Positions 2,916 through 20,597 of a stretch of 21,102 nt of DNA are shown in pieces. The first letter of the stretch is position 1; every line of letters starts with the position of its first letter. A program made the position numbers and the translations under genes. Under the pieces are notes generated by a model. It ran no database searches. It had not been told where the DNA came from and saw nothing but the letters and a program-made list of their open reading frames with translations. Source of the DNA: a virus; the IMG/VR virus record IMGVR_UViG_3300021140_000045, positions 1 through 21,102 of that record; one strand, written 5' to 3'.

Positions 2916-2946
2916 CAAATATAAGTAAAACTGTGACTATGTCAAA
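2916..2946 (-). promoter_or_regulatory. Bacteroidetes-type housekeeping promoter for the SSB-recombinase-nuclease operon
   Basis: On the minus strand, TTTG (2946-2943) is followed by exactly 19 nt and then TATATTTG (2923-2916). This matches the established Bacteroidetes sigma-ABfr consensus TTTG-N19-TAnnTTTG at -33/-7. Transcription would begin near 2910, leaving a leader of about 30 nt before the ATG at 2880. It lies just after the terminator of the upstream unit, where a promoter is expected. Confidence 0.8.
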
Positions 2947-3678: not shown

Positions 3679-3903
3679 TTAACCATTTAATAATGTTTTT
3701 ATTCCGTTAGCGGTTTCTACTCTAACCTTTCTGTTGGCTGTAGTTTGATGACCTGCTCTTTCGATAAGACCGTCTCTTTCTCTCACTGTGTAACAATCAC
3801 CTGTATCCAAGTCACAAACTTGTTTAGTTCCGTCTCCGTTGTCTTCCTGTGAAAATCTTACAGATTTACCAAGATAATTGTCTAATGCTGATTTAATGTT
3901 CAT
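3679..3903 (-). CDS. Small hypothetical protein (74 aa)
   Basis: The ATG at 3903 gives a soluble 74-aa protein beginning MNIKSALDNYLGKSVRF. It has a CDLDTGDC motif (two cysteines six residues apart, near 30-37) and a basic C-terminal half. I do not recognise it. A longer reading from 4032 (117 aa) would overlap the end of the 2579-aa gene and adds a non-conserved-looking hydrophobic N-terminus. The shorter start is preferred because it lies just after the giant gene's stop with a leader carrying the TATTTAT motif found before other virion genes. It is 3 nt from the following 227-aa gene, suggesting coupled expression. Confidence 0.75.
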   Translation of the reverse strand: MNIKSALDNYLGKSVRFSQEDNGDGTKQVCDLDTGDCYTVRERDGLIERAGHQTTANRKVRVETANGIKTLLNG

Positions 3904-3910
3904 AAGAATC

Positions 3911-3924
3911 TTTTTATATAAATA
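3911..3924 (-). promoter_or_regulatory. Putative late promoter/operator motif (variant)
   Basis: On the minus strand this reads TATTTATATAAAAA, with TATTTAT starting 21 nt before the ATG at 3903. It resembles the TATTTATnnATAAAA element before other virion genes but has two fewer spacer bases; the palindrome is TTTAT/ATAAA with no gap. Confidence 0.4.
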
Positions 3925-3934
3925 TGTTGTTATG

Positions 3935-6900
3935 TTATAAAGTGAATGGATTACTTGTTGCGGTAAATGTACCAGAGTTGTCAGCATTTTCATAAATGAC
4001 CGATAAAACAAATCGACCACTAGAATTAACATCTATCACGTTTGTATATTTGGTGTCTGGGTTATTTGTTATAGTTATGTTCAATGGAATAGTTTGTTTT
4101 GAACCCTCGGCAACGAAAACTTTAGATATTTTACAAAGTGGACAATTAAATCTATAAGTGATAAATCCTCCATCAGGTCTTCTAATATTATAATACAATG
4201 GTCCTTGGAAACTCGGTAATGTAACATCAGTACTTCTCTGAATGAACGATAATGACCCTTGAGGTTGCACCCCTGTTTCGGAAGATGGAACTATCATTCG
4301 GAACCTAACTGATTTAGTATCATCTTTTGGATTCTTTTCTCTATTTTCAGGTCTAGCACGTAAATAAATTGATGTACTAATTTCCAATCTCTTTCCTTTT
4401 TCCATCTCAAGTACCTCACTAAACTCCGCATCAATAAACTGTTGTCTAGTAATTGAGAAAGTTTGTCCATCGGGAGATACAAAACCTAAAAGTTTAGACG
4501 ATTCTGACGTTTCAATTGAAGTTCGAGTAACCGTATTATTAGGCCCCACTTCAATGAGGTCGATAATATAACTGTATTCTACTTGAGGCTCTATTTTCCA
4601 TACCCCACCTACATAATCATTTTGATCCACTTTAACTGTTAAAATTTCAGTACCAAGTTCATTATCAATTTTTTCAGAAATAAACATAGGTGGATTTAAC
4701 ATAGTTTCTTGAAGATTGGCGCTACCGCTTACATTCTCTTGTTCAGAAACCGGAATAACTTCTGTAGTCTTAGTATCCTCGTAACCTCCAGGTGATGATG
4801 TTGTGGTATTCTGTAGTGCCGGATTAAATGTAAAATCTACTAAACTTTCAAAATTACCATATTCAGTTGTAACTGTTATTCTTCCTGTTGCAACATTTTG
4901 TCCTTCAGGGATTTGAATTTCAGGTAGAATAAATCTTAATGTTTCAGAATTGAACACTGTAATATCCTTCAACTCAACATCTTTATTAATTACTGTGATT
5001 GATTTCAAAGACTCAAAATTTCTACCATTCACTTGAACAATCGTACCCGTAAATCCTGCAGATGGTGAGAATGTAGATAAAACTGGTGGTGGACAAGTTT
5101 GACCGATAGTTGGAGTTACAGTTGGTGTTTGTTCTTGGTTTCCGTTGTTCTCATTATTTTCAATATCTTTAAGTATTTCGTTCTTTGTCTTCAATCCAGA
5201 TTCCGCAGCCGAAGTTAAAGCCTTGTCAAATGTTTGTTTAGTCTGTAAAAATTCGTTTTCATTTTCATTATAGTATTCTTCAGAAATGTTATCCACAGGC
5301 CAATGACAAACATAATACTTTGTTAATCCAAGCCGGACTATTCTATCAAGATTGCTTCGAAGTCTTCCAGCCATAAATTGGATATATTTGTCTAATGAAT
5401 CAAAATGAGCAATTGGTTCTGAGGACGCGTTTCCCGGATTAGTTCGTACGTTAATACAACTATATCTTTTTTCTAAAAGTGAAACCTGCCCAAACCAATC
5501 TTGACTCAGTGATAATGTTGCAAAATTATTGTTCCATCCGTTGAACATTCCAGCACCTGTATTAGAAGCTTCTTGATAAGTTCTGATGTAAGAAATAGTA
5601 TATATCGCAACTTGTAAATCAACGTTATTAGGAATTAACCTTTTCAACGCCTCTGCAAAAACTTGTGGAGTCATTTCAGTCAATGTCGCATCAACCGCTT
5701 CATATCCACCATTAGTGTACACAGGTGCAGTTATTTTTGAACTACAAGAATTTGTTGTGTCTTTTGTGTTATCCGCCTGTTGTACGACTTGGGCTGATTT
5801 AACATTATCAGTTGTTGCACTAATTTTTACTTGGTCCTTATTTATCTTCAGTATCTCTTCTAACTTTGTAATCAAATTTTGATTAATACTTTGTAGGAAA
5901 CTATCTATAGTAGGTAAATCGAAATAACCTTGTCTTGTTCCATCAAATGTAGTTTGAAACGACCCTTGTTGAATCGAGTGATTTACCTCCGTAATCAAGT
6001 ATGGTCCATCAAACATAGGAACATGTCGTAAATTAAAATACATTGTAGGTTGTATTAACGCATTTCCCAAACTCGTTATCGAACATTTATATGACCTATT
6101 TTTATACAAGTTATATAAACTATTATTTTGTGTTGCTATCTGTCTACCTGAAGCTTGATTTGCCATGTCAAGTTGAACGTTAATCGATTCAGATGTTGCC
6201 ACCCCATTATCTTGTGAAACAGATAATGCATAAAATATGTTTTGGTTTCTAATCCCCACATCAACATTGAATCCAACGCACTTGTTTGAAAGAGCCCAGT
6301 CTTTTTTTCCTTGTTGGTCTTCTAACAATGGATTACCAGATGACCTTCTCATCTCAAATGCATCATCTCTATATTTGGAATCTCCTTTAGGTAATTTCAA
6401 ATATTGTGAAGGTTTTCCTGCATAGAAGCAAACCATCTTTGGTCCCGAATTTCTATAATCAACATCTAAAAATGTTCCCCATAAATTATTTGCAAATTGT
6501 TCAGGTCTATCAAGTCTTGGAGTAGCCGTCACATCAACATCTTGAATATTGTAAAAATTCACATATGCTGGAAGTGGCATCACAACAAAATTATTTTTAA
6601 TCAAAATACCACTTATAAAAGTGAAAACACTCATTGCTTGATTAAGAGAAAAATCTCCAGGAGTTTTACCTCCAACACCAAACATGTATTTCAAATCAAA
6701 AATATCGAGTAATATACTATCTCCAATATTTCTCGATGCTCTATCCAAAAACAACATATCTTCAAATAGAGTTTTGGTTTTCCAATCCCCACCAGATATC
6801 CACTTGTCATTCAATGATTTGAAAACTTCATAATTTTCTACCTTACTTTGGTCTCCAGTAATAACACTATTAATTACACGTTCAGGTAATTGTACTTGGT

Positions 6901-9900
6901 CTGGTAGTCCATTTGGTGGTGGTTGTCTCAATCTAGTTAGAACTCCATTCAAAAAGTTGTTTTGTATTAGTGTTTCTCTCTCAAGATATTGATTTAGTTG
7001 ATTTTGGAATTGGATTGCATTCAGATTTGGATTATTTAATTTCTGAGTAGCATACATTTTAATAATTGGTGCTAACAATGTAACATTCTCACTAGTAAAT
7101 GATATATTGTTATCGATAAAAAAATCTGTAATATATGACCCAATTGAACTATATCTAACGTTGGGGATTGTTGAGAACCCTACTTCTGTTTCCAAAGCTG
7201 TCCAAGCTTGTCTATTATTGATTTGAGATTGACTTAATAATAAATTACCCCCAGCGCTCGGAAGAGAATTAGGTACGTAAGGTTCAAAAGTAATGGGGTC
7301 TACAACTTCCTGAGTATTATTATGAGATAAGTAAGAATCAAAAATTCTCCTTTCGTAGTTGGACGGATTACCATATTTGAATATTACATCATATTCCATA
7401 AATGATTTTATACCATTTTGAAATAATGAATATTGATTGTTAATCACATTGTTGAAATATAATTCGTCAGTTTCTGTTTGTATTTTAGCAGGAACTACCA
7501 TTAAACTTCTGAATAATGATTGGAAGTTTTTGAAAGTTGCATTTGGGTCAACAGGAGATTGTCCAAACGTGACAATATTTCTCCCTGTTGAAGCGTTACC
7601 AATTGGTTTACAAAAATTCAAAAACTCAGTTTCAAACGAATCTAAAATTTTCTTTTCGAAAACAGAAAACACTTCTTCTATTTTTGTATAGTTGTCTTGT
7701 GTTAGAAAATACAATGGTGTTTGGCTGTTGCCAGTCGTGATTGAAGTTAAATAGGAATCTGGTTCAGGGAATACCAACTGATTACTATCGAAATATCCAA
7801 AATTAGGTGCCGACCATAAACATCTTACCGACCCATTGTACATGTTTGGATTGTTAGTCAAATCCACAACAGTTGCTGGAGATGTTGTTTGCGCGCTCAA
7901 ACAAGAATCAACAGTTTGATTGAATGGTGTTCCAAACGACGGAATTACGAAATAATCATCACCTACAGTATTATCTTTAGGGTTACAATCAACTGGAGGT
8001 CTGATAGTTATGTTTGGTAATAAAATTGACCATGTAGTCAATCTTAAATTTTTATCCCCTTGTTTAGCACTATTAATGTTTGATGAACTGAAATTATATA
8101 ATTTCATACCATAATTAACACTCTGTTGGATTTCCTCACTTGTATAATTTTCGTACAAATCATATCCGTTTAGAAAAACGTTGAAGTCATTAATAACTTT
8201 AGGATAAAATCCGACTTGCATCTGAATTTGAGTAACATCTTCGCTTTGAAGTGTTATTTTTGTATCTACGTTTGAATACTTGAATTCATACGTTTCGGTT
8301 ACAGCACTTGTAACAGGATAGTAATTACCCGCATAATCAAAGTTTTTCCAAGCACTTTCTAATATATCAACATTCGACTCTTTGTATTTTTTGTACCTGT
8401 GCCAAATCGAACCATATTTTAGAATCCAAGCATATGGTAACTTGTGGATTGCTCCAAATTTTTTGAATGTTGATGATATGTAATCCAAATCGGTTGTAAT
8501 ATTGTTAGAAACAGATTTGTATTTTTCTCTCAATGTTGCCAAAGGTAATGAATTCAAGAACATATATGCAGCTTGAACATATGGATAGGTGATTCCTGAC
8601 AATCTAGAATTATAAACTCCGTTTTGCACAGCATTTATAAAGTAAGGTGTATTCAACATTGATGTGGTACTTCTTGGACTGAACGCTCTTGTCGGAGTGG
8701 TACCGTTAATATATCCTTCAGTCGCAACAAAATCCTGAGGGTTTCTATTCAAGTAGAACGCATTGAGTCCAAGTGGTCCATATGTTGTATATGTAGAAAG
8801 CCCAGTCGTATCAATAGTTCCTGTTGGATTTTGATTTAATATATATGAAAAATTTGTTACAGGTCTATTCGTTGTGTAGTTATACACGTCAGTAAAGTTT
8901 GCAATAATTCTTCTTTGCTCGAAAATAGTTAAAGACTTGTTTGTATTATAAACTTGATTGGATAAGGCACTATTTCCTTGATTCAAATTGTTAAGACACC
9001 AAGTTTGGTCTGTGTATGGTAAAGTATCAACAATTAAAGGGTCATTTGGCGCATTGACCACTAAAGATCTTAATGCCTCTGATTTTGTTGCGGTTTGAGG
9101 TATTTTACCTAAATCCAAAGTACTGAGAATTGAAAAGGAGTTTTCAGTTATTCTCTTAATATAGGGAGTAACAAAAAAATCTCTAATAAAATCTTGATAT
9201 GCTCTACCTGTTCCTGAGTTTGATATTGTCCTCAAAAATTCAGGATAGTCTTTAGCATTCAGATTAAAGTTTTTAAGTTTTAATGTTAAGTAGGGAGAAC
9301 TTATTCCAAGTTTTGAAATAATATTATTTGCTTCCGCCTCAATGTTTAATGTAATTAATTCATTAATCTGATTTGTGTTTGCTCTTATGAATCCAGAATA
9401 ATGTGAAGTTAAAAATTGTCTCTCCCATATTTCATAAAAAAACTTTATTTCTTCTTTGTTTGAATAAGCCAATCCTACCGACGGGAATTCGATTGCATTG
9501 ATATTAATAATATTGGTATCCCGTTCATTATCTAACGGTGGAGGGGCACTAGGATTTTGAAACTTTTGAGTCAACCCTTTCATATATTCCTCAACAAATT
9601 CAACTTCAGGCCATTTGTCGAAAAGATATCCTTGAGTCAAATCAACGACAGATGGGTCCGCAATGTATTTTAATTGAAATTTGTTTTTTTCATCTTGGGT
9701 TTCAACAAAAAATTGCGGCCATGGATACACAGGTATCTCAGCTAATTTTAGTCCAGTTTCTTCTTCAAATGCGTTTGCTGCTAATTTCAAATCATCTTGA
9801 GAGTCCGAACTTGGTGCTGAGGCTAAGTCATTATAAATTGCTTGTTTTCTTACTGGGTCGTATTTCACATCCCATGCATTTGTATGAACATCATCCAAAA

Positions 9901-11674
9901 GACGAATAAAACCCTCTGCGGATGCCATAATAACCGCTAACATATTTCTTACTGTAGGCTTAAAACCGATTCCAGTCGCGGTATCCTCAACTTTTCTTAA
10001 GAGAGCCGTAGAAATTTGACTTTCGTAATCAGATAGTTTTTTGTTAGCCTGAGTTTCGAGTAATGTGATTTGTTTATCAAATCTTCCTTCATCTTCAAAT
10101 ACAAACCATTTTTCTTTAACCAAAGTACCCTTAGACAAGAGTTCTAGTGTTTCAATAATTCCAGATGGGGTTTTAGGTAATTCTATAGAAGTTGGGACAA
10201 AAAACTTTGTCAAATTAATCTTCGTCTGTGTCTCATCTATAGCACTAGGATTTGCGATTCCAGTCTGAATTCTAGTTGTTTCTCTCCAATTTATTTCTGA
10301 AAACACCGGAGCCGTTGTTTCAATCATGTCATACTTTATAGGGTTTGGTATCGGAGCGGCACCTTTAGAACCTAAAGTCGGATTACTTGCCAAAGCATCA
10401 TTAAATTTTACAATATCCCCTTGTAGTTGAGTTATCGCAGTTTCTTTAGCTTCTTTTGACAAGTCTTTGAATACGTATAATTTTTGACCTGTTTTAAGAA
10501 CTATTGGCTTAGTATTCAAATTAACGTTAAACCAAGATGTATTTGACCCTCTTACTGCAGTAAAGTATTGTGTGAGAACAGATTTATAATTTCTTATATT
10601 CGTTAATGATTCAACTTCAGTTTTGTCAAATGAATCTGCAATTAGTTGTTCAAAAGTCTCCAACTTATTCATAAGTTGTACTAATGTCAATTCAGGAAAG
10701 TCGGGAGCAATTAACCCTTTAGCTTTGTATTCACTATAAACTTCTATTATTTTTTGATACCCTTTTTCCGCAACAAGTTGAGTAACCACCGCTTCATTAG
10801 AACCTAAATTATTAGCTCCCCTTTCAGCTTGAGTACTTGCTTGAGACTCCGCAGCCTTATTAGGTTGTTGTGGCCCATCTACTGTTTGAGTAACATCAAA
10901 CCTTTGACTGTACATGTGTGGCGCCGCCAATAGGTGACCCATAGAAACTTCATTCAAGATATTAAATTTATATCCGACAAAATTTAATCTAACCTGATAA
11001 TTTCCGCTAAATCCATTAAACGAAGCATGGAAATTTTTTAAGTTAAGTTGATATCTAATTGCTTGTCCATAATACCCTTTTAATGTAAGATAGAATTGTG
11101 GGTATGGTAAATTAAAAAATACAGAATATGGGGAATTATTCCCTAATTGAAATAATCCTTTTCCTTGGACATCTTCTAATAACATTTCTACCGTAGGAAT
11201 GAAACTTGATGACGTTTTTATATTAATTGACGTAATTCCTAACAATCCATTATCAATTATGTCTTTTTGATTTACAACCGTGTCAAGTATATAGGGGTTA
11301 CTATTATCTGTCGCAGGTTGGGTTATTGCCGCTTTTTGATTTTCCCCTTTGAACTGTGTTGTATTTTCTCCAGTTAACTCGTCATAATATCCTGTTCCAA
11401 TATATGAATTTTTAGTCGGTTTCAAGAAATTCATTTTTGCAACAGAGATAGTCCCGATTCTATCATTAGGACTTCCACCAACCGATAATTTTGTTCTTGG
11501 TAAAACATCAGCTTCCAAATTGGCATACATGACAAGATTTTCGTGGTCGACAAGCCGTTCTCTAATGTTTCCAAAATTATCTGTAGTTTTGTTAGGGTCG
11601 ACTACAATAATATTGTTTTCGTCCAACTCAACTAAAATATTTCCACTTGTGTCCGCTTGTGTGTTACCTACCAT
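3935..11674 (-). CDS. Giant baseplate/hub-type structural protein with TIG domain (2579 aa)
   Basis: This is the largest gene here and almost certainly a virion baseplate component. The N-terminal region (about 150-260) carries a conserved-looking block: VEMLLEDVQGKGLF, SPYSVFFNLPYPQFYLTLKGYYG, then NYQVRLNFVGYKF, which I associate with hub-type baseplate proteins of T4-like myoviruses. Residues about 260-1500 are Asn/Thr/Tyr-rich and unrecognised. Residues about 1875-1920 (MFDGPYLITEVNHSIQQGSF.TTFDGTRQGYF) resemble the end of a hub-like fold. Residues about 1990-2125 vaguely resemble a glucosaminidase/lysozyme-like domain. Residues about 2193-2280 are a TIG/IPT beta-sandwich (FSPSAGFTGTIVQVNGRNF onward), followed by further beta-rich sequence and a C-terminal CPLC. 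It overlaps the gp53-like gene by 11 nt, so the two are probably translationally coupled. The baseplate role is a confident inference; the exact T4 counterpart is not clear. Confidence 0.8.
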   Translation of the reverse strand: MVGNTQADTSGNILVELDENNIIVVDPNKTTDNFGNIRERLVDHENLVMYANLEADVLPRTKLSVGGSPNDRIGTISVAKMNFLKPTKNSYIGTGYYDELTGENTTQFKGENQKAAITQPATDNSNPYILDTVVNQKDIIDNGLLGITSINIKTSSSFIPTVEMLLEDVQGKGLFQLGNNSPYSVFFNLPYPQFYLTLKGYYGQAIRYQLNLKNFHASFNGFSGNYQVRLNFVGYKFNILNEVSMGHLLAAPHMYSQRFDVTQTVDGPQQPNKAAESQASTQAERGANNLGSNEAVVTQLVAEKGYQKIIEVYSEYKAKGLIAPDFPELTLVQLMNKLETFEQLIADSFDKTEVESLTNIRNYKSVLTQYFTAVRGSNTSWFNVNLNTKPIVLKTGQKLYVFKDLSKEAKETAITQLQGDIVKFNDALASNPTLGSKGAAPIPNPIKYDMIETTAPVFSEINWRETTRIQTGIANPSAIDETQTKINLTKFFVPTSIELPKTPSGIIETLELLSKGTLVKEKWFVFEDEGRFDKQITLLETQANKKLSDYESQISTALLRKVEDTATGIGFKPTVRNMLAVIMASAEGFIRLLDDVHTNAWDVKYDPVRKQAIYNDLASAPSSDSQDDLKLAANAFEEETGLKLAEIPVYPWPQFFVETQDEKNKFQLKYIADPSVVDLTQGYLFDKWPEVEFVEEYMKGLTQKFQNPSAPPPLDNERDTNIININAIEFPSVGLAYSNKEEIKFFYEIWERQFLTSHYSGFIRANTNQINELITLNIEAEANNIISKLGISSPYLTLKLKNFNLNAKDYPEFLRTISNSGTGRAYQDFIRDFFVTPYIKRITENSFSILSTLDLGKIPQTATKSEALRSLVVNAPNDPLIVDTLPYTDQTWCLNNLNQGNSALSNQVYNTNKSLTIFEQRRIIANFTDVYNYTTNRPVTNFSYILNQNPTGTIDTTGLSTYTTYGPLGLNAFYLNRNPQDFVATEGYINGTTPTRAFSPRSTTSMLNTPYFINAVQNGVYNSRLSGITYPYVQAAYMFLNSLPLATLREKYKSVSNNITTDLDYISSTFKKFGAIHKLPYAWILKYGSIWHRYKKYKESNVDILESAWKNFDYAGNYYPVTSAVTETYEFKYSNVDTKITLQSEDVTQIQMQVGFYPKVINDFNVFLNGYDLYENYTSEEIQQSVNYGMKLYNFSSSNINSAKQGDKNLRLTTWSILLPNITIRPPVDCNPKDNTVGDDYFVIPSFGTPFNQTVDSCLSAQTTSPATVVDLTNNPNMYNGSVRCLWSAPNFGYFDSNQLVFPEPDSYLTSITTGNSQTPLYFLTQDNYTKIEEVFSVFEKKILDSFETEFLNFCKPIGNASTGRNIVTFGQSPVDPNATFKNFQSLFRSLMVVPAKIQTETDELYFNNVINNQYSLFQNGIKSFMEYDVIFKYGNPSNYERRIFDSYLSHNNTQEVVDPITFEPYVPNSLPSAGGNLLLSQSQINNRQAWTALETEVGFSTIPNVRYSSIGSYITDFFIDNNISFTSENVTLLAPIIKMYATQKLNNPNLNAIQFQNQLNQYLERETLIQNNFLNGVLTRLRQPPPNGLPDQVQLPERVINSVITGDQSKVENYEVFKSLNDKWISGGDWKTKTLFEDMLFLDRASRNIGDSILLDIFDLKYMFGVGGKTPGDFSLNQAMSVFTFISGILIKNNFVVMPLPAYVNFYNIQDVDVTATPRLDRPEQFANNLWGTFLDVDYRNSGPKMVCFYAGKPSQYLKLPKGDSKYRDDAFEMRRSSGNPLLEDQQGKKDWALSNKCVGFNVDVGIRNQNIFYALSVSQDNGVATSESINVQLDMANQASGRQIATQNNSLYNLYKNRSYKCSITSLGNALIQPTMYFNLRHVPMFDGPYLITEVNHSIQQGSFQTTFDGTRQGYFDLPTIDSFLQSINQNLITKLEEILKINKDQVKISATTDNVKSAQVVQQADNTKDTTNSCSSKITAPVYTNGGYEAVDATLTEMTPQVFAEALKRLIPNNVDLQVAIYTISYIRTYQEASNTGAGMFNGWNNNFATLSLSQDWFGQVSLLEKRYSCINVRTNPGNASSEPIAHFDSLDKYIQFMAGRLRSNLDRIVRLGLTKYYVCHWPVDNISEEYYNENENEFLQTKQTFDKALTSAAESGLKTKNEILKDIENNENNGNQEQTPTVTPTIGQTCPPPVLSTFSPSAGFTGTIVQVNGRNFESLKSITVINKDVELKDITVFNSETLRFILPEIQIPEGQNVATGRITVTTEYGNFESLVDFTFNPALQNTTTSSPGGYEDTKTTEVIPVSEQENVSGSANLQETMLNPPMFISEKIDNELGTEILTVKVDQNDYVGGVWKIEPQVEYSYIIDLIEVGPNNTVTRTSIETSESSKLLGFVSPDGQTFSITRQQFIDAEFSEVLEMEKGKRLEISTSIYLRARPENREKNPKDDTKSVRFRMIVPSSETGVQPQGSLSFIQRSTDVTLPSFQGPLYYNIRRPDGGFITYRFNCPLCKISKVFVAEGSKQTIPLNITITNNPDTKYTNVIDVNSSGRFVLSVIYENADNSGTFTATSNPFTL

Positions 11675-11987
11675 AATAATAAAAATGATTTTCTAATGCC
11701 GCCTTATAGTCCTGTAAAGATGGTAATAACGGAAATGGGATAATCAATACAGCTCCGTCATAAATATTATTTTCAAGACCTCCAAATTGAGGATTCGCCT
11801 GAAGGATTAACCAGCTAAATACAGGTGAGTTATAAAATTCTTGTGAAACTTTATCTAATCTACTTTTAGCGACTTTATAGATAAATGCTTTATCCGTAGG
11901 TTTTTGAGGCAAGTATACAAAGGGGACAACTGTTTGTTCCCCATTAATAAGAAAATCACTATATCTATTCCAATATTGATATGCCAT
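11664..11987 (-). CDS. 53: gp53-like baseplate wedge protein
   Basis: This 107-aa protein begins MAYQYWNRYSDF and contains RLDKVSQEFYNSPVFSWLILQANPQFGG followed by a DGAVLIIPFP element. That is the LysM-like arrangement seen in the T4 gp53 family of baseplate wedge proteins. T4 gp53 is 196 aa, so this one is about half the size and consists mostly of the conserved part. It is wedged between two giant baseplate genes: its ATG overlaps the stop of the 1708-aa gene (TAATG) and its own end overlaps the start of the 2579-aa gene by 11 nt. The tight packing implies translational coupling and fits joint assembly into one baseplate. Confidence 0.75.
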   Translation of the reverse strand: MAYQYWNRYSDFLINGEQTVVPFVYLPQKPTDKAFIYKVAKSRLDKVSQEFYNSPVFSWLILQANPQFGGLENNIYDGAVLIIPFPLLPSLQDYKAALENHFYYYGR

Positions 11988-14900
11988 TAGTTAAGTTTTG
12001 CTTTAGATATATATGCACCTGTGCTGTTTCCATTCAAATCATTCCAAGTTAATACATTTGTATTTTGATTGGTTGTATTTGCCAAACCTTTTATCATATT
12101 TTCTTGAGATTTTTTCTTAGTATCATCCGCAGTATTTTCTGATGTGAAAGTGAAATTTCGTTGTTTGCTAATATCGAATGGAGTATAAATTAAATAATCT
12201 TTTAAGTCATTTTTTTCTAAACTTTCCACAAATGATTTTGAAATATTATTCTCTTCCAAGAAAACTGGTCTTACCGTTGCAATCCAATATGTATCAAATA
12301 TTACCTCAATGTCAACAGACCCGTCTCCAAGTAACGCTTGGTTACCAAGAATATTCCCAATAAGTTCTTGCTTGAATGTTTCATATTTTTTTTCGTCAAT
12401 TACATCATCAGAAATAATCATATAAACTCTTCTAAAAGGATATTTTTCAACATTATCATCAAACAAAGGATTTTTGCTAAACGGTAAAAAAACTTTTTGT
12501 ACCGTAACATCATCTGCTTTCCCATTATCAGTTTCGAATACCAAAATTCCTTCATAGTTAGTCTTAGTTGCGGGATAATCAAAACTTGTTTTTGCTTGGA
12601 TAATATTATTAAAATTAGTAATATCTATTTGGATTTTAGTCGCATCTTCGTCTAGTTCGAGATATGTATTGGTGGCCCCCGTAGATGTTGGATGGACATC
12701 TGTCGTTCCAGATGTTACGTATATTCTGACAGGGCCATTTTTAGCTTGAAGTCCATCTGTACCTCTTTCATCGTCGGTTGGATCAAACAGTATTGTGTTT
12801 AATCTACCGAGAGTTTGAAGGTATGTTTGTTGTTGATTTACCAAACTTTGTGTTATAGTTGAAATTCCGTTTTGAAAAGACCCACGTTTTCTTGACACAA
12901 AATTTATATAATTTTCTTTCAAAACCCTAATTAACTTGGGTGATAAATTTTTGGAGGGTTCTGAAACAAATTGAATAAACCCTTCATCACCATCCTTGAT
13001 ATTTTTACTAAGTTCTGCAAAGATTTCATCAAATCTTTTCTCAACATTATTAGGTTTTCCGAACAACACTAAAGGGTTAGTATTAATACTCAAATTTCCT
13101 TGTGTATAATTTCGTTCTAACATCCACTGTTGTCTAACTGCGTTATTGTATTGATTTATAGTTTCTTTAGTTTTATTAACAACATTTGTAAAATATGTTT
13201 GAGTATCACTAACAACTCTACCCATAAATTCACTATAACTTATAACACCCGTTGTGATTCCACTTACATCTATTGAAGAACTAACTATCGCGCCAATAGT
13301 ATTATTGTTATCTTGACCATTATTTGGTGCGGCACTATTGACACCAGGTATTGGTGGTGGAACTTGACCAGCTAAAAATATTTGGTCTAATATTTTTGAA
13401 GACTCAATATCCGTGGCATCTGCCCTATCATCATAAATTTCTGTATTAGCATAATAATTGAAGGTCAATGCATTCTGTAACTTATCAACCGACTCTTTCA
13501 ATCCACTACCTCCAACAAAATTAAATGATAATGTGACGTTTGCAATCATTGGTTGAACACCAATTCCTTCAGGATTGATATCTAACCCTTCATAATTGAT
13601 TGCTAACGATGTAGGAATAATCTTTGTATTATAAAAATCACCTACTCTCAACACTAACACCGGTGGTGCTCCAAATGACGTGTTAGTTGCGTTATCATAC
13701 TGTAATTCCTGTTTACCACCCGGAGTAGATTGTTTAACTGTTGGTATTGTATCACCAGGTCTCATACACTGTTGTAAAAACGTCAACCTTGAATTTAATC
13801 CTTCAGGTGTCATAGAATGAAAAGATGGTTGAAAAAACTTCAACTTGTCTTTCAAATTATCATAAACCATCGGAGTTTCAGATTTGATAGTTTCAAAATA
13901 ATCACACTCGGATAATAAAGCTCTGACGACTTTTTTTGTAATATTATCTCTTGGTTCCCATCGTGGTTCAGTAGTAGGCTCAGGCACAGTCTGAGTGACA
14001 ACATTTCCAATTAAAATTGGGATTGTACCTGAACTTGTGGTGGGATTTGTCTGTCCTCCTGGTGTTCCTTCACCATTAGGCCCTGTCTGTGGAGCCTTTA
14101 AGTTTGGAACTATCTTTGAAATAAATGACCTTCTACAAGCCATTGCCCCAACTGTAAAAACTTCCTTAGCTCCAACTGGAGTATCACCTCCATCCGCACT
14201 TGGACTACTATCGCTACAATCAAATGTTTTTCCATTAGGCTCAAGTGAATCAATATATGGACCTTTGGTCAAACTGCTTTTCTTAGGATTAGATACTGCC
14301 ACTTCTCCGAGGGCTCCAGCTCTATCGGGACCAGTGCCAGTGTCTTCCTTAACCATCAAACGGTTTTGAGTCATAAATGTTTTTGTTGCATCGTTCTCCT
14401 GAAAAAATCTTACCGTTGCATCAATTCTACGTTTTGATAATTCAAGATTATATGATTCAGTTGCAGGAGCGGAACAACTCGAACTGACATATACTGTTAC
14501 AGTTCCTTCATTGTTTTGCAATTGTTTACCTAAATCAATTGCAAACTCATTCATAGATTCGTAATTTGGAGTGACTACTGTATCAAAAAAAGTCTTTGTT
14601 TCTTGAGCATTTGTCTGTTTGGAATACGTTTGATTAACCTCATCAGCGTATCTTGGGTATTCGGTAGCATAATTTATACTTGTTTTTGGTAGGGGATAAT
14701 TATTTCCAAAATAAAATCCTAGTTGTAAATATTTGTCGAAGTTTAAGTTTGTATTTCCACCTGCACCCTCTTGAGCGAGTGGTTGGTCTCCTCCATTAGG
14801 TGAGAATGCTCCTGATTCTATGGTTCCACGAGTATATACAATTTGTTCTCGGGTCATTTCCTTTGAAGAAATTGCTTGTTGTAATTCGAACAAATCATTT

Positions 14901-17113
14901 GGATTTACTGTTACATATTTTTTTGCTAACTCGTAGATATCATATTTTCTACATCCAGCAAAAAATGATTCTAAAATACTGTCAACACGAGTCTTGTTTG
15001 TTTCGTTACCCAAAACTTTATTCACAATGACATTAAGAACTGATGGATGGTCTACTACTATTTTCCATTGTAGTGACCCTGTTCTTGATGTATTTTTATA
15101 AGTATATATTGGTTCAGGTCGTCCCAAAAAGTCAGATTGATTCCAATTTGATGATATGTTTTCACTGAATGTTAATCCATATGGTGGAAACCACATAACT
15201 CTACCATCGTTAGGACCTCTCTCACAAACAGGTAAATCAGACGTTGAAAATCCTGGAGTACTAGATGTTCTCCATGCCAAGTTCTCTAATGAAAACATAT
15301 ATTTTTTGGCGACCGCATTATTTATTGTACCAACAATATTCGTTGAATCCTGTCCACCTTCTTGTTTGTTTGGCACAATATTCAAATTATATGTTTTATC
15401 TAATACGGAATAAGCAAATCTTCTACCTTCAGTTGTAATACCATCTTGTTTCTGTAAGTCGTTATACTGTAGATATGGTAAATCTTTAGCAAAAACACGA
15501 CAATACTCAGTACCTACCTCTTGGCCAATAGCACCAACGTATCGATAAACTCTTGAACCTTTAGTAAGTTCTTTATATCCATCATTGAATACTTTACTTA
15601 CTTGGTCTATCGCATTTCCAACGTGTTGAAGACGTTTACCTCCTTGAGGTTGGCTATCAATTATTCTTTGTGTTTTGTCAAGGATAGAACCGTCTCGGAA
15701 TTCGTTATTGACTGACTCCGTATTAACGTAAGACGATGGTCTAAAGTCCTCATCTTGATTAGTAACCTCACCACCAATACCAACTTTTTTACCAGCATTA
15801 CCTCTGTACTTAGGTGAAACCCAAGTAAATCCACCTTCAATACCTCCACCATTACTATATGTCGGCCCATTCGCACCAAGTCTTATTGATTGACTTGGTC
15901 CTTCATACAACTGTGCCAACTCTGAAGGACCATAGACAGGTGACTGTTGTTCAACACCAAATTGGTTAACTGGAACATCTCCTACAGGAGAAAATACTTG
16001 GGATGGGTTAGAAGTTATACTTCCAACATAAAAGTTACTATTATCAGATACTGTACCTAAAAGAGTACCACCTACCCTTTGGAAAAAGTTTCTTGGAAAA
16101 TTAGGTTTGTATCTGTTGAAATCTATGTTCTTAAACAACCTAGACCTTTGTCCCGCACCCATGTTATTAAACATGATTTGAGATCCAGTCTCACCACCAC
16201 CCATTAATCGATTGAAGAATCTACCAACACCACTTTGTCTAAAAGCATTGGATAGTTGTTGTATTGTAGTTGGCTGACCTAAAGTAGTATTTGGGTCAAA
16301 ATAAGACCCTGGTATAGGTGATACCGGTAATATACTTCCTCCAAGTCTTAAGGCAAAGTTTGTCGCAGCAAGTATTGGATTTGCGGTTACTGTGATTGTA
16401 TAAACAGGCTCAATGATAGGAACAACACCTGTTAATATATTAACAATATCAGTACCACTAGAAACGTTAAGAATATTTGCCCTCCCTAATGTATCTTGTC
16501 GTATTTGTGCTGCAATCCTGTCTCGGAACTCTTTCCTAAGAGTTTGTGCCCCTAAACGTGCAATGAATGAATCTTGACTTAATAAACCGTTACTTCCACC
16601 TGGATCTGGTGATAATAAAATAGAAACTGGAGTATAAGTTGAAGATACAAACGTTGTTGGATATGGTTGATTATTTTGAGTATTTGTGGATATAGGACGA
16701 TTTAGTGAACCAAAAAATTCAGCACCGTCTAATGCAACTTCATTTCCATTTGAAAAAACGTTTAGAGGTTTCCACTTTTGAGATTCTGGTAACGATTGAC
16801 CTACGATATTTGCATCTTGGTATCCATATTCACCCTCATTTGATTTTGTATTAAGTAATGCTCCTGGATCTGGTACTTGCTCATATCCACCCTCGTTACC
16901 ATATTGGTTTAGTGGATATAATTTATTGGCAAAAGAGGGTTCATCAATCAATTTATCAGGACTATCTTGAACTGAAGAATTCGATTGAACGTATTCCGTA
17001 TCGATTGGTTGTGTTGGTCTATTTGGGGCTTTTGCATAGGGTGTTAAATTCCTAGTCAAAAGTTTTTTTCTAAACCCCTCTGAATTTGCTAAATCTAATA
17101 ACGGACTTGCCAT
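11987..17113 (-). CDS. Large tail/baseplate structural protein with OmpA-like domain (1708 aa)
   Basis: No single T4 counterpart is evident. The N-terminal part is Asn/Gln/Pro/Gly-rich with few motifs. The segment GLTFSENISSNWNQSDFLGRPEPIYTYKNTSRTGSLQWKI (around 650-690) and the later INYEGLDINPEGIGVQPMIANVTLSFNFVGGSGL...LQNALTFNYYANTEIYDDRA (about 1170-1230) look like conserved phage baseplate sequence. Between them, about 838-1000, is an OmpA-like peptidoglycan-associated domain: VTVYVSSS..SYNLELSKRRIDATVRFF, then GEVAVSNP and a terminal ACRRSFISKI strand. The gene follows the tape measure gene and overlaps the gp53-like gene by 1 nt. It would act in the virion, possibly touching the periplasmic cell wall during infection. 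The baseplate assignment rests mainly on context. Confidence 0.75.
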   Translation of the reverse strand: MASPLLDLANSEGFRKKLLTRNLTPYAKAPNRPTQPIDTEYVQSNSSVQDSPDKLIDEPSFANKLYPLNQYGNEGGYEQVPDPGALLNTKSNEGEYGYQDANIVGQSLPESQKWKPLNVFSNGNEVALDGAEFFGSLNRPISTNTQNNQPYPTTFVSSTYTPVSILLSPDPGGSNGLLSQDSFIARLGAQTLRKEFRDRIAAQIRQDTLGRANILNVSSGTDIVNILTGVVPIIEPVYTITVTANPILAATNFALRLGGSILPVSPIPGSYFDPNTTLGQPTTIQQLSNAFRQSGVGRFFNRLMGGGETGSQIMFNNMGAGQRSRLFKNIDFNRYKPNFPRNFFQRVGGTLLGTVSDNSNFYVGSITSNPSQVFSPVGDVPVNQFGVEQQSPVYGPSELAQLYEGPSQSIRLGANGPTYSNGGGIEGGFTWVSPKYRGNAGKKVGIGGEVTNQDEDFRPSSYVNTESVNNEFRDGSILDKTQRIIDSQPQGGKRLQHVGNAIDQVSKVFNDGYKELTKGSRVYRYVGAIGQEVGTEYCRVFAKDLPYLQYNDLQKQDGITTEGRRFAYSVLDKTYNLNIVPNKQEGGQDSTNIVGTINNAVAKKYMFSLENLAWRTSSTPGFSTSDLPVCERGPNDGRVMWFPPYGLTFSENISSNWNQSDFLGRPEPIYTYKNTSRTGSLQWKIVVDHPSVLNVIVNKVLGNETNKTRVDSILESFFAGCRKYDIYELAKKYVTVNPNDLFELQQAISSKEMTREQIVYTRGTIESGAFSPNGGDQPLAQEGAGGNTNLNFDKYLQLGFYFGNNYPLPKTSINYATEYPRYADEVNQTYSKQTNAQETKTFFDTVVTPNYESMNEFAIDLGKQLQNNEGTVTVYVSSSCSAPATESYNLELSKRRIDATVRFFQENDATKTFMTQNRLMVKEDTGTGPDRAGALGEVAVSNPKKSSLTKGPYIDSLEPNGKTFDCSDSSPSADGGDTPVGAKEVFTVGAMACRRSFISKIVPNLKAPQTGPNGEGTPGGQTNPTTSSGTIPILIGNVVTQTVPEPTTEPRWEPRDNITKKVVRALLSECDYFETIKSETPMVYDNLKDKLKFFQPSFHSMTPEGLNSRLTFLQQCMRPGDTIPTVKQSTPGGKQELQYDNATNTSFGAPPVLVLRVGDFYNTKIIPTSLAINYEGLDINPEGIGVQPMIANVTLSFNFVGGSGLKESVDKLQNALTFNYYANTEIYDDRADATDIESSKILDQIFLAGQVPPPIPGVNSAAPNNGQDNNNTIGAIVSSSIDVSGITTGVISYSEFMGRVVSDTQTYFTNVVNKTKETINQYNNAVRQQWMLERNYTQGNLSINTNPLVLFGKPNNVEKRFDEIFAELSKNIKDGDEGFIQFVSEPSKNLSPKLIRVLKENYINFVSRKRGSFQNGISTITQSLVNQQQTYLQTLGRLNTILFDPTDDERGTDGLQAKNGPVRIYVTSGTTDVHPTSTGATNTYLELDEDATKIQIDITNFNNIIQAKTSFDYPATKTNYEGILVFETDNGKADDVTVQKVFLPFSKNPLFDDNVEKYPFRRVYMIISDDVIDEKKYETFKQELIGNILGNQALLGDGSVDIEVIFDTYWIATVRPVFLEENNISKSFVESLEKNDLKDYLIYTPFDISKQRNFTFTSENTADDTKKKSQENMIKGLANTTNQNTNVLTWNDLNGNSTGAYISKAKLN

Positions 17114-17119
17114 TTATAT

Positions 17120-17134
17120 TTTTATTAATAAATA
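17120..17134 (-). promoter_or_regulatory. Putative late promoter/operator motif
   Basis: Minus strand TATTTATTAATAAAA, starting 21 nt before the ATG at 17113. It matches the TATTTATnnATAAAA element shared by other virion gene leaders and includes the palindrome TTTAT-TA-ATAAA. Confidence 0.5.
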
Positions 17135-17151
17135 GGTTATGGTTGTTTTTT

Positions 17152-17159
17152 TATTTATA
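17152..17159 (-). promoter_or_regulatory. Exact T4 late-promoter octamer TATAAATA
   Basis: The minus strand holds TATAAATA just after the tape measure stop codon, 38 nt before the ATG of the 1708-aa gene. In T4 this octamer is the complete late promoter recognised with gp55/gp33 and the sliding clamp. In AT-rich DNA it may occur by chance, and the neighbouring TATTTATTAATAAAA is a competing candidate. Confidence 0.35.
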
Positions 17160-17163
17160 AATT

Positions 17164-19011
17164 TCAGTAGGTAGACGCTCCTCCACCTCTAAACACGTTA
17201 TCAGGACGAGTAACTCTAACTATATAATCCTTAAACTTATCTTCATTCAATTTATCTGAAATAGTTTTTGAAATTTGTTCTTTTTGTTCGGAACTTAAAC
17301 CTGTTGGTAAATCTTGGAAATTCACGTTTACCTTTATTTCCCCAAGTAACTCAATTAGACTCTTTTGTTCTCTTACTTGACCCTCTACAGTACCTAAATT
17401 TCGGTTTGCTCCCCGCATCCCTTCAGCTGTGATATTTGTCCAAAAATCATCTTCGGTCGTTGTTCCTCCTTTACCATCAGGTATTGGAGATAAATTAGTT
17501 GCAAACTTTGCTAACATAGCATCAACATTACCAACCAAACTTGCAGCAAATCCTCCCTTCTCCTCTAATTTTTTCTTTATGTCTGTTCCAATATTACCAA
17601 AAAGTGTAAGGGCTTCACTTCCTAATTCTTTAATATTTCCCGCAGATACTTTACCTAATTCGGCCATAGCACCCATAATATCCCCCGAGGCAATTTTTGC
17701 TTGAATTTCTTTATTATTAGCAATGTCACCTGTCTTACCCTCACTTATCTCCCTAATTTTGTTTTTCCCTTTTTCTGTTGTTAGTTGCCCAGTAGTTGCC
17801 TCTCCAACAACATCTACACCTGTTCTGGCACCTTCAATAATATTTCGGATGTTTTTGTCGGTCAAAACACCACCTAATAAAGAGTAATTTATTGATGCAA
17901 GATAACTCGAACTAAGTTCGTCGATTGATAATTGTGCCTTAGCCAAATCTTCAAGTGTTTTTGGTCCATTTTTTTGTTCATCAATTAATTCATCTAATTG
18001 TTCTTGATTAAGTTCCCCTAATTTGACATAATCTTCTTGTCCTTTAATTTTAACTTCATACTCTCCTCCTTCACCCATTCTACCAATATTGGCAAGATAT
18101 TGTTTGTCCTCTTCGTTTTCAAACGCGAGGCTAGGACTTATTTGAGATAGTCTTTCATCCAACTCGGCAGCAGCTAATCCCAACTTACTCATTTCAGCGG
18201 CACTTACATTTGTTTGTTGTTGTATTTCTCTTAGAGTTAAAACACCTTGAGGGTTGATTTTGAATGTTTTAGTCTTTTCATCAAAATAAGTAAACTGTTT
18301 TGCAACATCAACTAAACTGTCTTGTAATTCTCCTGGGTCATTAATTGATGCATTCATTAGTGCAAACGGGTCCACTAAATTTCCCGCCGCAACTCCAAGT
18401 CTTTGAAAAGCGGATGCAACTTCGATTGCGCCCTCTGGTGATATTACTTTTTCAGCTAATTCAAAAGTTTGTTTCATATCAAATCTCAACAGTGAAGCTT
18501 GGGCCGCCATTTTCGTTAAACCTTGAACTCCACCTTCAAATTGAAAACGGTTCATTTGGGCCATATTGTCAGTCACATCTTTCATGACTTGTTTGGCATT
18601 CGCTCCAATACTTCTTACATAGTTGATTGAATCTTCGAGACTTTCTCCCATTTCTCCTATTCCAACACCAACATTCATAAATGCAGTTGAAAGTTCACCA
18701 GCATTTATATTTAGAAGTTTGTAAGCGGCAACTAACTCTCTTGTATTTTCTGTAGTCTCAATAACATTTCTTCGAGATGATATTGCAATACCTTCAATTT
18801 GTTTCCCTAAATTTGGTAAGTCCACACCAAAGGCTCTTACTTGAGGTAAAACGTCAGTAATTGATTGTTGGAATTCAGTTACTCTTTGTCTCCCTTGAGT
18901 AAAGGTCGAAAGAATTTGACCAGATAATTTATCTAAACCTTTTCGGACAGCATCAATATCAAAATTTTCAGCTTCAGGTTTGTCTGCTCCGGGTGAGTCT
19001 TGAAAGAACAT
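17164..19011 (-). CDS. Tail tape measure protein
   Basis: This 615-aa protein has the tape-measure look: long helical, low-cysteine sequence with repeated Ala/Gly/Leu-rich amphipathic stretches over the first 450 residues (for example LDKLSGQILSTFTQGRQ, NTRELVAAYKLLNINAGELSTAFMNVGVGIGEMGESLEDS, VASAFQRLGVAAGNLVDPFALMNASINDPGELQDSLVDV). A Gly-rich region near 480-530 precedes a charged C-terminus ending FRGGGASTY. Its size is close to T4 gp29 (590 aa). With the usual ratio of about 1.5 angstrom per residue this predicts a tail near 90 nm. It lies between the gp26/gp51-like assembly genes and the baseplate genes, the normal place for a tape measure gene. A terminator hairpin and a TATTTAT motif precede it, so it probably starts its own transcript. 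Confidence 0.85.
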   Translation of the reverse strand: MFFQDSPGADKPEAENFDIDAVRKGLDKLSGQILSTFTQGRQRVTEFQQSITDVLPQVRAFGVDLPNLGKQIEGIAISSRRNVIETTENTRELVAAYKLLNINAGELSTAFMNVGVGIGEMGESLEDSINYVRSIGANAKQVMKDVTDNMAQMNRFQFEGGVQGLTKMAAQASLLRFDMKQTFELAEKVISPEGAIEVASAFQRLGVAAGNLVDPFALMNASINDPGELQDSLVDVAKQFTYFDEKTKTFKINPQGVLTLREIQQQTNVSAAEMSKLGLAAAELDERLSQISPSLAFENEEDKQYLANIGRMGEGGEYEVKIKGQEDYVKLGELNQEQLDELIDEQKNGPKTLEDLAKAQLSIDELSSSYLASINYSLLGGVLTDKNIRNIIEGARTGVDVVGEATTGQLTTEKGKNKIREISEGKTGDIANNKEIQAKIASGDIMGAMAELGKVSAGNIKELGSEALTLFGNIGTDIKKKLEEKGGFAASLVGNVDAMLAKFATNLSPIPDGKGGTTTEDDFWTNITAEGMRGANRNLGTVEGQVREQKSLIELLGEIKVNVNFQDLPTGLSSEQKEQISKTISDKLNEDKFKDYIVRVTRPDNVFRGGGASTY

Positions 19012-19020
19012 AGTTGATTA

Positions 19021-19035
19021 TTTTATCTATAAATA
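19021..19035 (-). promoter_or_regulatory. Putative late promoter/operator motif
   Basis: Minus strand TATTTATAGATAAAA, starting 24 nt before the tape measure ATG and directly after the preceding terminator. It matches the TATTTATnnATAAAA element and contains TTTAT-AG-ATAAA. Its position between a terminator and a gene start supports a promoter role. Confidence 0.55.
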
Positions 19036-19036
19036 T

Positions 19037-19062
19037 AAAAGGACTGATTTTTCAGTCCTTTT
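19037..19062 (-). terminator. Terminator overlapping the end of the gp51-like ORF
   Basis: A perfect 11-bp stem AAAAGGACTGA / TCAGTCCTTTT with a 4-nt loop, followed by a T/A-rich stretch on the minus strand. The stop codon TGA of the gp51-like frame (19052-19054) is part of the stem. It closes the gp26/gp51-like unit. The symmetric A and T arms mean it could work in both directions. Confidence 0.8.
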
Positions 19063-19231
19063 TGTTTAGTTCAACCCATTTATCTAAAAGATACTTCCTA
19101 ATGAATATTGGCATTATTAAAAAATCAGAATAAGATATATTCAAAAGTGTTTTCAGAAAGTAAAATTCATCTATTTGTCCTTTCCTATAATCAGAAGAAA
19201 GGGCGAAAAAAGTCAACCCCAAACCCAACAT
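19052..19231 (-). CDS. 51: gp51-like tail/hub assembly ORF, in the +1 frame relative to the gp26-like gene
   Basis: A short ORF overlaps the 3' end of the gp26-like gene in the +1 frame and ends in the terminator stem. From the ATG at 19231 it encodes 59 aa. The part beyond the overlap reads DEFYFLKTLLNISYSDFLIMPIFIRKYLLDKW onward. It has an aromatic helix, an 'MPI..R..L' segment and a charged lysine-rich tail, which resembles the small gp51-type hub assembly proteins that follow gp26 in T4-like phages and the C-terminal extension of tail assembly chaperones. It may be made from its own ATG, or as a C-terminal extension of the gp26-like protein by +1 frameshifting at 19205-19211, giving about 293 aa. 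The frame has no stop between 19231 and 19054. Coding status is well supported by the protein-like sequence; the gp51 name is tentative. Confidence 0.65.
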   Translation of the reverse strand: MLGLGLTFFALSSDYRKGQIDEFYFLKTLLNISYSDFLIMPIFIRKYLLDKWVELNKKD

Positions 19232-19934
19232 TGACTGTTAGTTTCTCTCCTGATGGGGCTATTACTGTTCTCGTTAAATCTAATTTAGGTTCATTATCAT
19301 CCATGAACTTTCTAATATATTTTGAATCTGCAATTGGCATTTGGTCTACAAACTTGGCGATTTCAGATTTGTCTGTTATCCCATTTACCTCTGTAATTTG
19401 TTTGTTCAACCTCCAAGTAACTTTTGGTGCAGTCCTTCCTTGAGGATACGACTCCGACATTTTTTGAATCTCTAAAATCTCACCATAAGTTAAAGGTTTT
19501 ATCTTTACAGTAGTTTGAGACTTTGGTAACATAGTTACAAAAGTTCCATCATCCAATGGTTGTTGTCCTTTAATAACATCTAATTCATCTAATCTGACAT
19601 TCCCTTTGAATGGCTTTTTTGTAATTGGGTCAACTAAGTTCAAATCCATTTCAGGCCCAAACGATGTATTTCTTAAAAAAATTAATATTGATTCAACATC
19701 TCCTTCTAATAAATCTTCAATACGAACATCTGGTTCATAGATTTTAGATCTTAATAAAATTTGAGTCATGTCGTTACCGCCAGCCATGAGGATGTTTTCA
19801 TCATTCGCTGTAAGATATCCAACTTTGATAGATTTTTTCTTATTCTTATAAAAGAGACCTTGTGTCGGTAAAGGCACAACGTCATGAGGTAACGAAAAAT
19901 TTGATTGTCCGTGTTCTTTTGCTTGATTATCCAT
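19191..19934 (-). CDS. 26: gp26-like baseplate hub / tail assembly protein
   Basis: This 247-aa protein fits the T4 gp26-type baseplate family. It has a low-complexity start, the LPTQGLFY motif (22-29), the LTANDENILM segment (41-50), LLEGDVESILIFLRNTSFG (75-93), and a middle with LKPLTYGEIL-like sequence (KIKPLTYGEILEIQKM, 144-159). T4 gp26 is 208 aa and acts in assembly of the central hub. Here the gene sits between the tail tube and tape measure genes, exactly where tail assembly chaperones lie in siphoviruses and many myoviruses, so a chaperone role around the tape measure is equally likely. The last five sense codons follow a run of six T residues, and a second frame continues past its TGA, suggesting a frameshifted longer product. 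The preceding hairpin ends 8 nt before the ATG. Confidence 0.75.
   Translation of the reverse strand: MDNQAKEHGQSNFSLPHDVVPLPTQGLFYKNKKKSIKVGYLTANDENILMAGGNDMTQILLRSKIYEPDVRIEDLLEGDVESILIFLRNTSFGPEMDLNLVDPITKKPFKGNVRLDELDVIKGQQPLDDGTFVTMLPKSQTTVKIKPLTYGEILEIQKMSESYPQGRTAPKVTWRLNKQITEVNGITDKSEIAKFVDQMPIADSKYIRKFMDDNEPKLDLTRTVIAPSGEKLTVNVGFGVDFFRPFF
19202..19214 (-). other. Candidate programmed +1 frameshift site
   Basis: On the minus strand the zero frame reads GAC TTT TTT CGC, giving Asp-Phe-Phe-Arg four codons before the TGA. If the Phe-tRNA on the second TTT slips forward one base it pairs with TTC, its preferred codon, and reading continues GCC CTT TCT TCT in the gp51-like frame for 50 residues. 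The next zero-frame codon is CGC, likely rare in this AT-rich genome, which could cause the pause. No standard -1 heptamer is present in the right phase. Seen in the sequence; function inferred. Confidence 0.5.
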
Positions 19935-19941
19935 ATAAAAA

Positions 19942-19974
19942 TTTAACCGTAAAGTTTAGTGCTTTACGGTTAAA
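19942..19974 (-). terminator. Strong hairpin after the tail tube gene
   Basis: A perfect 13-bp inverted repeat TTTAACCGTAAAG / CTTTACGGTTAAA with a 7-nt loop, followed on the minus strand by a T-run (AAATTTTTATAT). It lies 41 nt beyond the tail tube stop and only 8 nt before the gp26-like ATG. It looks like a rho-independent terminator limiting read-through from the abundant tail tube transcript. Its closeness to the next gene means it could also be a 5' stabilising or attenuating hairpin. Confidence 0.75.
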
Positions 19975-19990
19975 TATAATTGTATTTGAA

Positions 19991-20002
19991 TTTTAATAAA
20001 TA
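19991..20002 (-). promoter_or_regulatory. Weak copy of the TATTTAT motif
   Basis: Minus strand TATTTATTAAAA between the tail tube stop and the 13-bp hairpin, 68 nt before the gp26-like ATG. It keeps TATTTAT but not the full palindrome. A transcript starting here would carry the hairpin at its very 5' end. Confidence 0.25.
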
Positions 20003-20015
20003 GTATCTTGATAAA

Positions 20016-20504
20016 TTAGTAAACAAGTACGCAACGATCCATTCTAAGTGTTGCGTTAATTGTTGCTAGTCCGTCTTGTGCGTAACTCAAAGCGTTGAAG
20101 TTCACATCAGTCAAAAATGTTCCATAAAGAATCCATTTTTCTACAACAACACCAGTTGGGTCCAACATTTCGAGGTCAACATCTTTTTTATAACCTGCAG
20201 CATAACCCATACGACCTGTTACAGATTCAGCATGTAAACGTACCCACTCCATAAGAGCCTGAGCCGCTGAAGGTCCAATCGGATCTCTAAACACCGCTGG
20301 AATTGTTTGCCAAGTGAATTTACCCGCAACATAAGTTTCAGTATTCAAGAAAGGAATTGGAACGGGGTTTATAATAATATGTGGTCTTGCAGAAGATTCA
20401 ACAAACCATTCATTTATACCAAGTGATGATGGAAACCTCAGGATAAAACGATTCTGTCGTTTTGGTTCGTAAGGAATCGGCATTTTCATTAACAAATCAG
20501 CCAT
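20016..20504 (-). CDS. 19: Tail tube protein, T4 gp19 family
   Basis: This 162-aa protein matches T4 gp19 (163 aa) in length and pattern. The N-terminus has PYEPKRQNRFILRFPSSLGI and VESSARPHI, the start of the tube beta-barrel; FLNTETYVAGKFTWQTIPAVFRDPIGPSA follows; then the helix ALMEWVRLHAES; and the C-terminal strand region EKWILYGTFLTDVNFNALSYAQDGLATINATLRMDRCVLVY. Hexameric rings of this protein stack to form the inner tail tube. The gene has its own leader with the TATTTAT motif and an A-rich initiation region with no Shine-Dalgarno. It is followed by a strong terminator, as expected for a highly expressed single-gene unit. No sheath gene is in the window. Confidence 0.9.
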   Translation of the reverse strand: MADLLMKMPIPYEPKRQNRFILRFPSSLGINEWFVESSARPHIIINPVPIPFLNTETYVAGKFTWQTIPAVFRDPIGPSAAQALMEWVRLHAESVTGRMGYAAGYKKDVDLEMLDPTGVVVEKWILYGTFLTDVNFNALSYAQDGLATINATLRMDRCVLVY

Positions 20505-20531
20505 GTGTTTTTAATTTTTTTGTTTTTGTTA

Positions 20532-20546
20532 TTTTATTGATAAATA
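20532..20546 (-). promoter_or_regulatory. Putative late promoter/operator motif
   Basis: Minus strand TATTTATCAATAAAA, starting 42 nt before the tail tube ATG. It matches the shared element TATTTATnnATAAAA and contains the palindrome TTTAT-CA-ATAAA. Confidence 0.5.
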
Positions 20547-20597
20547 TATCCTTTCACAAAAATTTTTCTATTTACTTTTTTTTTGAAAACGATATTC

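Follow-up and report, generated by a model that had tools for sequence, protein, structure and literature searches.

We propose that a short box, TATTTAT preceded by any base other than T (V-TATTTAT), is very probably the T4-type late promoter element of a group of Bacteroidota phages, where it would be read by a diverged gp55-like sigma factor on the host RNA polymerase. The box is conserved in orthologous leaders, concentrated ahead of virion genes and held at preferred distances from their start codons. From these comparisons of sequence we infer a role in initiating transcription, recognition by the gp55-like protein and action late in infection.

Copies of the box in a phage tail module

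The DNA analysed here (the window) is an entire IMG/VR virus record of 21,102 bases and is probably a genome fragment. Every identifiable gene is encoded on the minus strand, where a T4-like tail module is followed by a replication operon encoding SSB, a UvsX-like recombinase and an exonuclease. The tail module comprises the genes for the tail tube (20016–20504; phrog_4542), a gp26-like baseplate hub (19191–19934; PF12322, phrog_150), a 615-aa product in the tape-measure position (17164–19011), a 1708-aa virion-module protein (11987–17113), a 2579-aa tail protein (3935–11674) and a wedge protein; a 74-aa gene is found at 3679–3903. No family match was found for the 615-aa product, nor any match by tblastn against phage records; judged by synteny with Flavobacterium phage immuto alone, it would be the tape measure.

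Immuto is the closest cultured phage by UvsX (42% identity, and 39% for the tail tube) and, within the group, the only one with a family A DNA polymerase. Relatives of the window are very common in aquatic metagenomes, with at least 598 tail-tube relatives in IMG/VR and at least 585 relatives of the gp55-like sigma described below, on contigs of up to 321 kb. The lineage may overlap with the recently described ‘moraphages’ of Bacteroidota, which have a sigma factor among their common genes and genomes of up to 307 kb, the largest in that paper (PMC12619734); no promoter work on moraphages was found in the literature. Three sigma-bearing contigs measure 321,283 (L196), 317,210 (L199) and 309,177 bases (L223), so the family with the gp55-like sigma takes in jumbo phages.

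An earlier note on this DNA had described TATTTAT followed by an A/T-rich ATAAAA in four gene leaders. These copies are present on the minus (coding) strand, exact at 20532–20546, 19021–19035 and 17120–17134 and shortened at 3910–3924. Within them, TATTTAT lies at 20540–20546 ahead of the tail tube gene (preceded by A, with 42 nt from its first T to the start codon), at 19029–19035 ahead of the tape-measure-like gene (start codon 24 nt downstream), at 17128–17134 ahead of the 1708-aa gene (21 nt) and at 3918–3924 ahead of the 74-aa gene (21 nt). Transcription of these genes would start at about 20534, 19023, 17122 and 3912, respectively. The tape-measure copy does lie between a terminator and the gene start, as had been noted: the box is directly behind an intrinsic hairpin with a T tract (GGACTG AAAAAT CAGTCC TTTT; 19037–19058, minus strand), and relatives are arranged likewise.

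Allowing two or fewer mismatches, the 15-mer occurs 14 times in the window compared with 5.8 expected (sd 2.5), a count reached in none of 100 shuffles, and its three zero-mismatch copies each stand ahead of a virion gene. Five of the six sense-strand copies of TATTTAT are in leaders and one (11760–11766) is within a gene. Using an order-3 model trained on the gene-called leaders, however, the four copies found in those leaders did not differ significantly from the 2.0 expected. The window alone is therefore suggestive only, and the comparative evidence decides.

The weaker copy reported at 19991–20002 contains an exact TATTTAT (19996–20002, minus strand) ahead of the gp26-like gene, although it is conserved in only 7 of 60 distinct orthologous leaders. 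It sits upstream of a terminator-like hairpin and is probably not the promoter of that gene. The hairpin (TTTAACCGTAAAG...CTTTACGGTTAAA followed by T's; 19942–19974, minus strand) is immediately followed by the ATG of the gp26-like gene, and its stem is kept in relatives with letters changed on both sides. It resembles a terminator that follows the tail tube gene, in which case the hub gene would need read-through. A second conserved block, AAGTAAATAGAAAAATTTTT, is found at 20558–20577 (minus strand), ~12–31 nt upstream of the tail-tube box; at three loci of relatives (L069, L073 and L080) the late box is absent and a block like AAGTAAATAGAAAAATTTTT immediately precedes the ATG.

Conservation, gene class and spacing of the box

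Footprinting across 80 relatives of the tail tube region, counting distinct leaders, revealed that the box is kept in 55 of 58 tail-tube leaders while the flanks drift, and in 38 of 38 leaders of the 1708-aa gene. It was also present in seven of nine tape-measure leaders of relatives, some of whose starts are uncertain. None of 25 relatives has a box in the leader of the 2579-aa gene, which is operonic, and no orthologous leaders of the 74-aa gene were found among the loci of relatives.

For the remaining analyses we pooled 13 sequences, namely the window, 11 related contigs (48–142 kb) and the isolate immuto. Across this set, the conserved unit is a single box. In a logo of 253 leaders, T precedes the 7-mer in 6%, A-rich DNA lies 11–13 nt beyond the first T and no conserved −35 element is seen. 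The GC content 15–18 nt upstream of the box (about −30 to −27) is 16% compared with 28% nearby (p = 4e-16), matching the AT-rich −28 motif of Flavobacterium promoters (PMC6847099). Of the element in the earlier note, the first half thus stands, whereas the ATAAAA half and the proposed palindrome, TTTAT-NN-ATAAA, are not conserved and drop out of the signal: TATTTAT occurs in 50 of 66 virion leaders of the window and its relatives, the full TATTTATnnATAAA in only 9, and the spacing of the second half is variable. When tail-tube leaders are set side by side, the second half drifts in position while TATATTTAT stays fixed.

TATTTAT was found 265 times in 36.2 kb of leaders, whereas 1.08 Mb of coding sense strand contains 176 copies, making it ~45-fold denser in leaders; its reverse complement has 81 copies in leaders, and the box is thus oriented with the gene. 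The possibility that the box is as common inside genes therefore does not hold. No enrichment was found in 50-kb stretches of the Bacteroidota phages phi38:1 and phiST or of RM378, with 0, 1 and 0 leader boxes, respectively.

Genes were classed by blastp to immuto, according to whether the best match fell inside or outside its two virion blocks. The box was found in 50 of the 66 virion leaders and in 5 of 50 replication and other leaders (Fisher p = 4.5e-13), in agreement with the earlier view that it precedes virion rather than early genes; for its reverse complement, the counts were 6/66 and 1/50. With the deposited annotation and gene starts of immuto, the corresponding counts were 22/38 and 11/78 (p = 2e-6). 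By gene, the box is present in the leaders of the immuto 81944 baseplate ortholog (8/8), tail sheath (8/8), tail tube (10/11) and portal (4/4), and in none of those of SSB (0/10), UvsX (0/9) and the major capsid protein (0/4). The major capsid leaders (immuto NC_055915, 126896–128506, and its orthologs in G001, G003, G004 and G005) are without the box in all five phages and are A-rich, and this gene is probably transcribed from the upstream head gene.

The host −7 element, TAHHTTTG, shows the opposite pattern, occurring in 1 of 66 virion leaders and 11 of 50 others, although it was not found in immuto leaders. By the published consensus (PMC6847099), a host-type (Bacteroidota) promoter precedes the SSB gene of the window (2916–2946, minus strand; TTTG at 2943–2946, 19 nt, and TATATTTG at 2916–2923), and the SSB leader has no late box. 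Both results are in keeping with the suggestion that the replication operon uses a host-type promoter.

Measured from the first T of the box, the start codon lay 11–13 nt away in 52 of 256 leaders (23, 18 and 11 leaders at 11, 12 and 13 nt), 8–10 nt away in two and 14–16 nt away in six, with a second peak at 21 nt (31 leaders) and a tail at 42 nt. The reverse-complement control was flat. Counted by gene family, 2 were at 8–10 nt, 23 at 11–13 nt, 2 at 14–16 nt and 43 at 17–26 nt. Among 91 gaps with an intrinsic terminator, the box was downstream of it in 35 and upstream in 5. The simplest reading is that RNA would start 11–13 nt after the first T, because of which start codons are almost never closer than 11 nt; the peak places the box at about −12. 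Where the ATG is itself 11–13 nt away, a leaderless class of late mRNAs is predicted, and approximately one-fifth of box genes would have their ATG at +1. Since 87% of predicted transcripts in F. johnsoniae have leaders >10 nt (PMC6847099), such a class would be a trait of the phages.

Immediately after the gp55-like sigma gene comes a small conserved gene whose product begins MPRPQ (G001, 95633–96004; G003, 63897–64262; G004, 101758–102120; G012, 6670–7035). In all four contigs the box precedes its ATG by exactly 11 nt, and the gene is probably leaderless. The 11-nt peak recurs at the sigma-neighbourhood loci, where it is not independent, because all surround one locus, and is probably dominated by this gene.

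A candidate late sigma factor and likeness to T4

The late sigma factor family phrog_234, chosen by means of T4 gp55, matched a 240–255-aa open frame in 6 of 12 records (G001, G003, G004, G005, G012 and immuto). Single-sequence matches to gp55 were weak (E 6e-5 to 8e-3) and the profile–profile probability was 22%. In the family built around this protein, phrog_234 matched 32 of 36 members (E up to 0.1, best 4e-5), most of them only over about positions 63–128 of the profile, and Sigma70_r2 matched 20 of 36. The sole PDB sequence match was T4 gp55 (E 0.2). A structure model (pLDDT 76) best matched gp55 in the open complex (7d7c chain F; Z 10.3 over 127 residues), and most of the next-best matches were other sigma factors; helical folds easily reach middling Z, and a Foldseek search with the complete model returned no match with E below 0.001. 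The last 100 residues are helical, with a sigma-54 chain and sigma-A region 4 as their best matches (Z 5.4), too weak to name the domain. Several libraries thus agree, at distant homology, on a gp55-like sigma in the relatives; since the gene is absent from the window, we infer its presence in this very phage from them.

Searches with PF02916, PF09116 and PF00712 gave no credible match to a gp45-type clamp in the group, where the clamp may be diverged or the contigs incomplete; PF02916 and PF09116 do match T4, our positive control. A weak PF00712 match in G004 was rejected as it falls in an open reading frame that is epimerase-like by its sequence, and phrog_12791 had no match anywhere, controls included.

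T4 late promoters consist of TATAAATA followed by AT-rich DNA and lack a −35 element (PMC2988020), and known T4 relatives keep TAAATA, including CTAAATA in Aeh1 (PMC1524935). The arrangement here is alike in having a single 7–8-bp box about one turn upstream of the start and no −35 (PMC2988020, PMC1524935), AT-rich DNA downstream, a place ahead of virion genes and a phage sigma with a gp55-like region-2 fold; measured from start-codon spacing, the co-oriented box lies at about −13 to −6. It differs in the box itself, TATTTAT(A), where TATTTATA set in register with TATAAATA is changed only at two central bases, and in the sigma, a protein of ~250 aa that carries a C-terminal helical domain where T4 gp55 has its gp45-binding tail. 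In virion leaders of the group, TATAAATA and CTAAATA were each found in 2 of 66, whereas T4 late-gene leaders contained TATAAATA in 8 of 34 and TATTTATA in 2 of 34. Reverse-complementing TATAAATA also gives TATTTATA; we read the box as a sense promoter because it points the same way as its gene and the spacing was measured to that gene. Aeh1 offers a parallel, identified in silico, of a T4-type phage with a diverged gp55 and a changed late box, although it retains the TAAATA core (PMC1524935) and here the core itself is changed. We found no TATTTAT phage promoter in the literature. The best reading is that the signal would be a T4 late promoter with a changed box, not a separate kind of promoter.

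In the proposed mechanism, V-TATTTAT would serve as a −10-type box. Start-codon spacing places it between about −12 and −6 relative to the implied start of transcription; AT-rich DNA flanks it around −30 to −27 and again where transcription would begin, and it has no −35 partner. A gp55-type phage sigma of ~250 aa, with region 2 and the C-terminal helical domain, would take over the host RNA polymerase from the host sigma late in infection and read the box of late genes, while early and replication genes would keep host-type TAHHTTTG promoters. Box genes with their ATG 11–13 nt from the box would be made as leaderless mRNAs. It is possible, though doubtful, that this is a clamp-independent branch of the T4 type, in which a gp55 with two domains, region 2 and a region-4-like one at the C terminus, reads TATTTAT without gp45 and drives conserved leaderless virion mRNAs.

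Competing explanations and meaning

The earlier proposal of a different late signal or the binding site of a phage regulator is supported by leader classes, density, spacing and the gp55-like sigma in relatives. The box could instead be recognized by the host sigma as a weak form of TAHHTTTG, perhaps aided by an activator from the phage. Its initial TA, corresponding to T−12 and A−11 of the F. johnsoniae housekeeping promoter, and the T four bases on are common to the host element, and both have AT-rich DNA around −28 (PMC6847099). Yet the box lacks the near-invariant host T−7 and G−5, having A at −7 in every copy and G at −5 in 4%, and the two elements mark different gene classes. As these phages encode a gp55-like sigma and no conserved activator site was seen upstream of the box, we regard recognition by the host sigma as improbable. 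An operator for a repressor or activator at late genes, suggested by the palindromic look of three window copies, is less likely still: the second half is seldom present, the element is directional and its closest approach to the start codon is fixed, and nothing else conserved nearby could be the promoter.

Proximity to start codons, together with the use of A-rich leaders instead of Shine–Dalgarno sequences in Bacteroidota (PMC6847099), would also suit an RNA element in late mRNA leaders, either a translation signal or a processing site. Two narrow distance classes and a 42-nt tail do not fit ribosome contact, however, and boxes occur directly behind terminators, are accompanied by AT-rich DNA 15–18 nt upstream and are lacking from early genes of the same phages, leaving this account very little probability. 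Chance copies, which the earlier note had allowed for given the AT-rich composition, can be set aside almost entirely. Although leaders are very AT-rich and the count in the window's leaders was not significant, such an origin is refuted by the orthologous leaders of the tail tube and 1708-aa genes, and the density, class and spacing tests also argue against it.

We found no description in the literature of gene control in these abundant aquatic phages. The T4-type late promoter reading would make the box a ready marker of late genes and a source of start-site predictions. A sigma–promoter pair that differs from that of T4 would also make the evolution of gp55 specificity, and the need for a replication clamp in late transcription, testable in the cultured Flavobacterium phage immuto.
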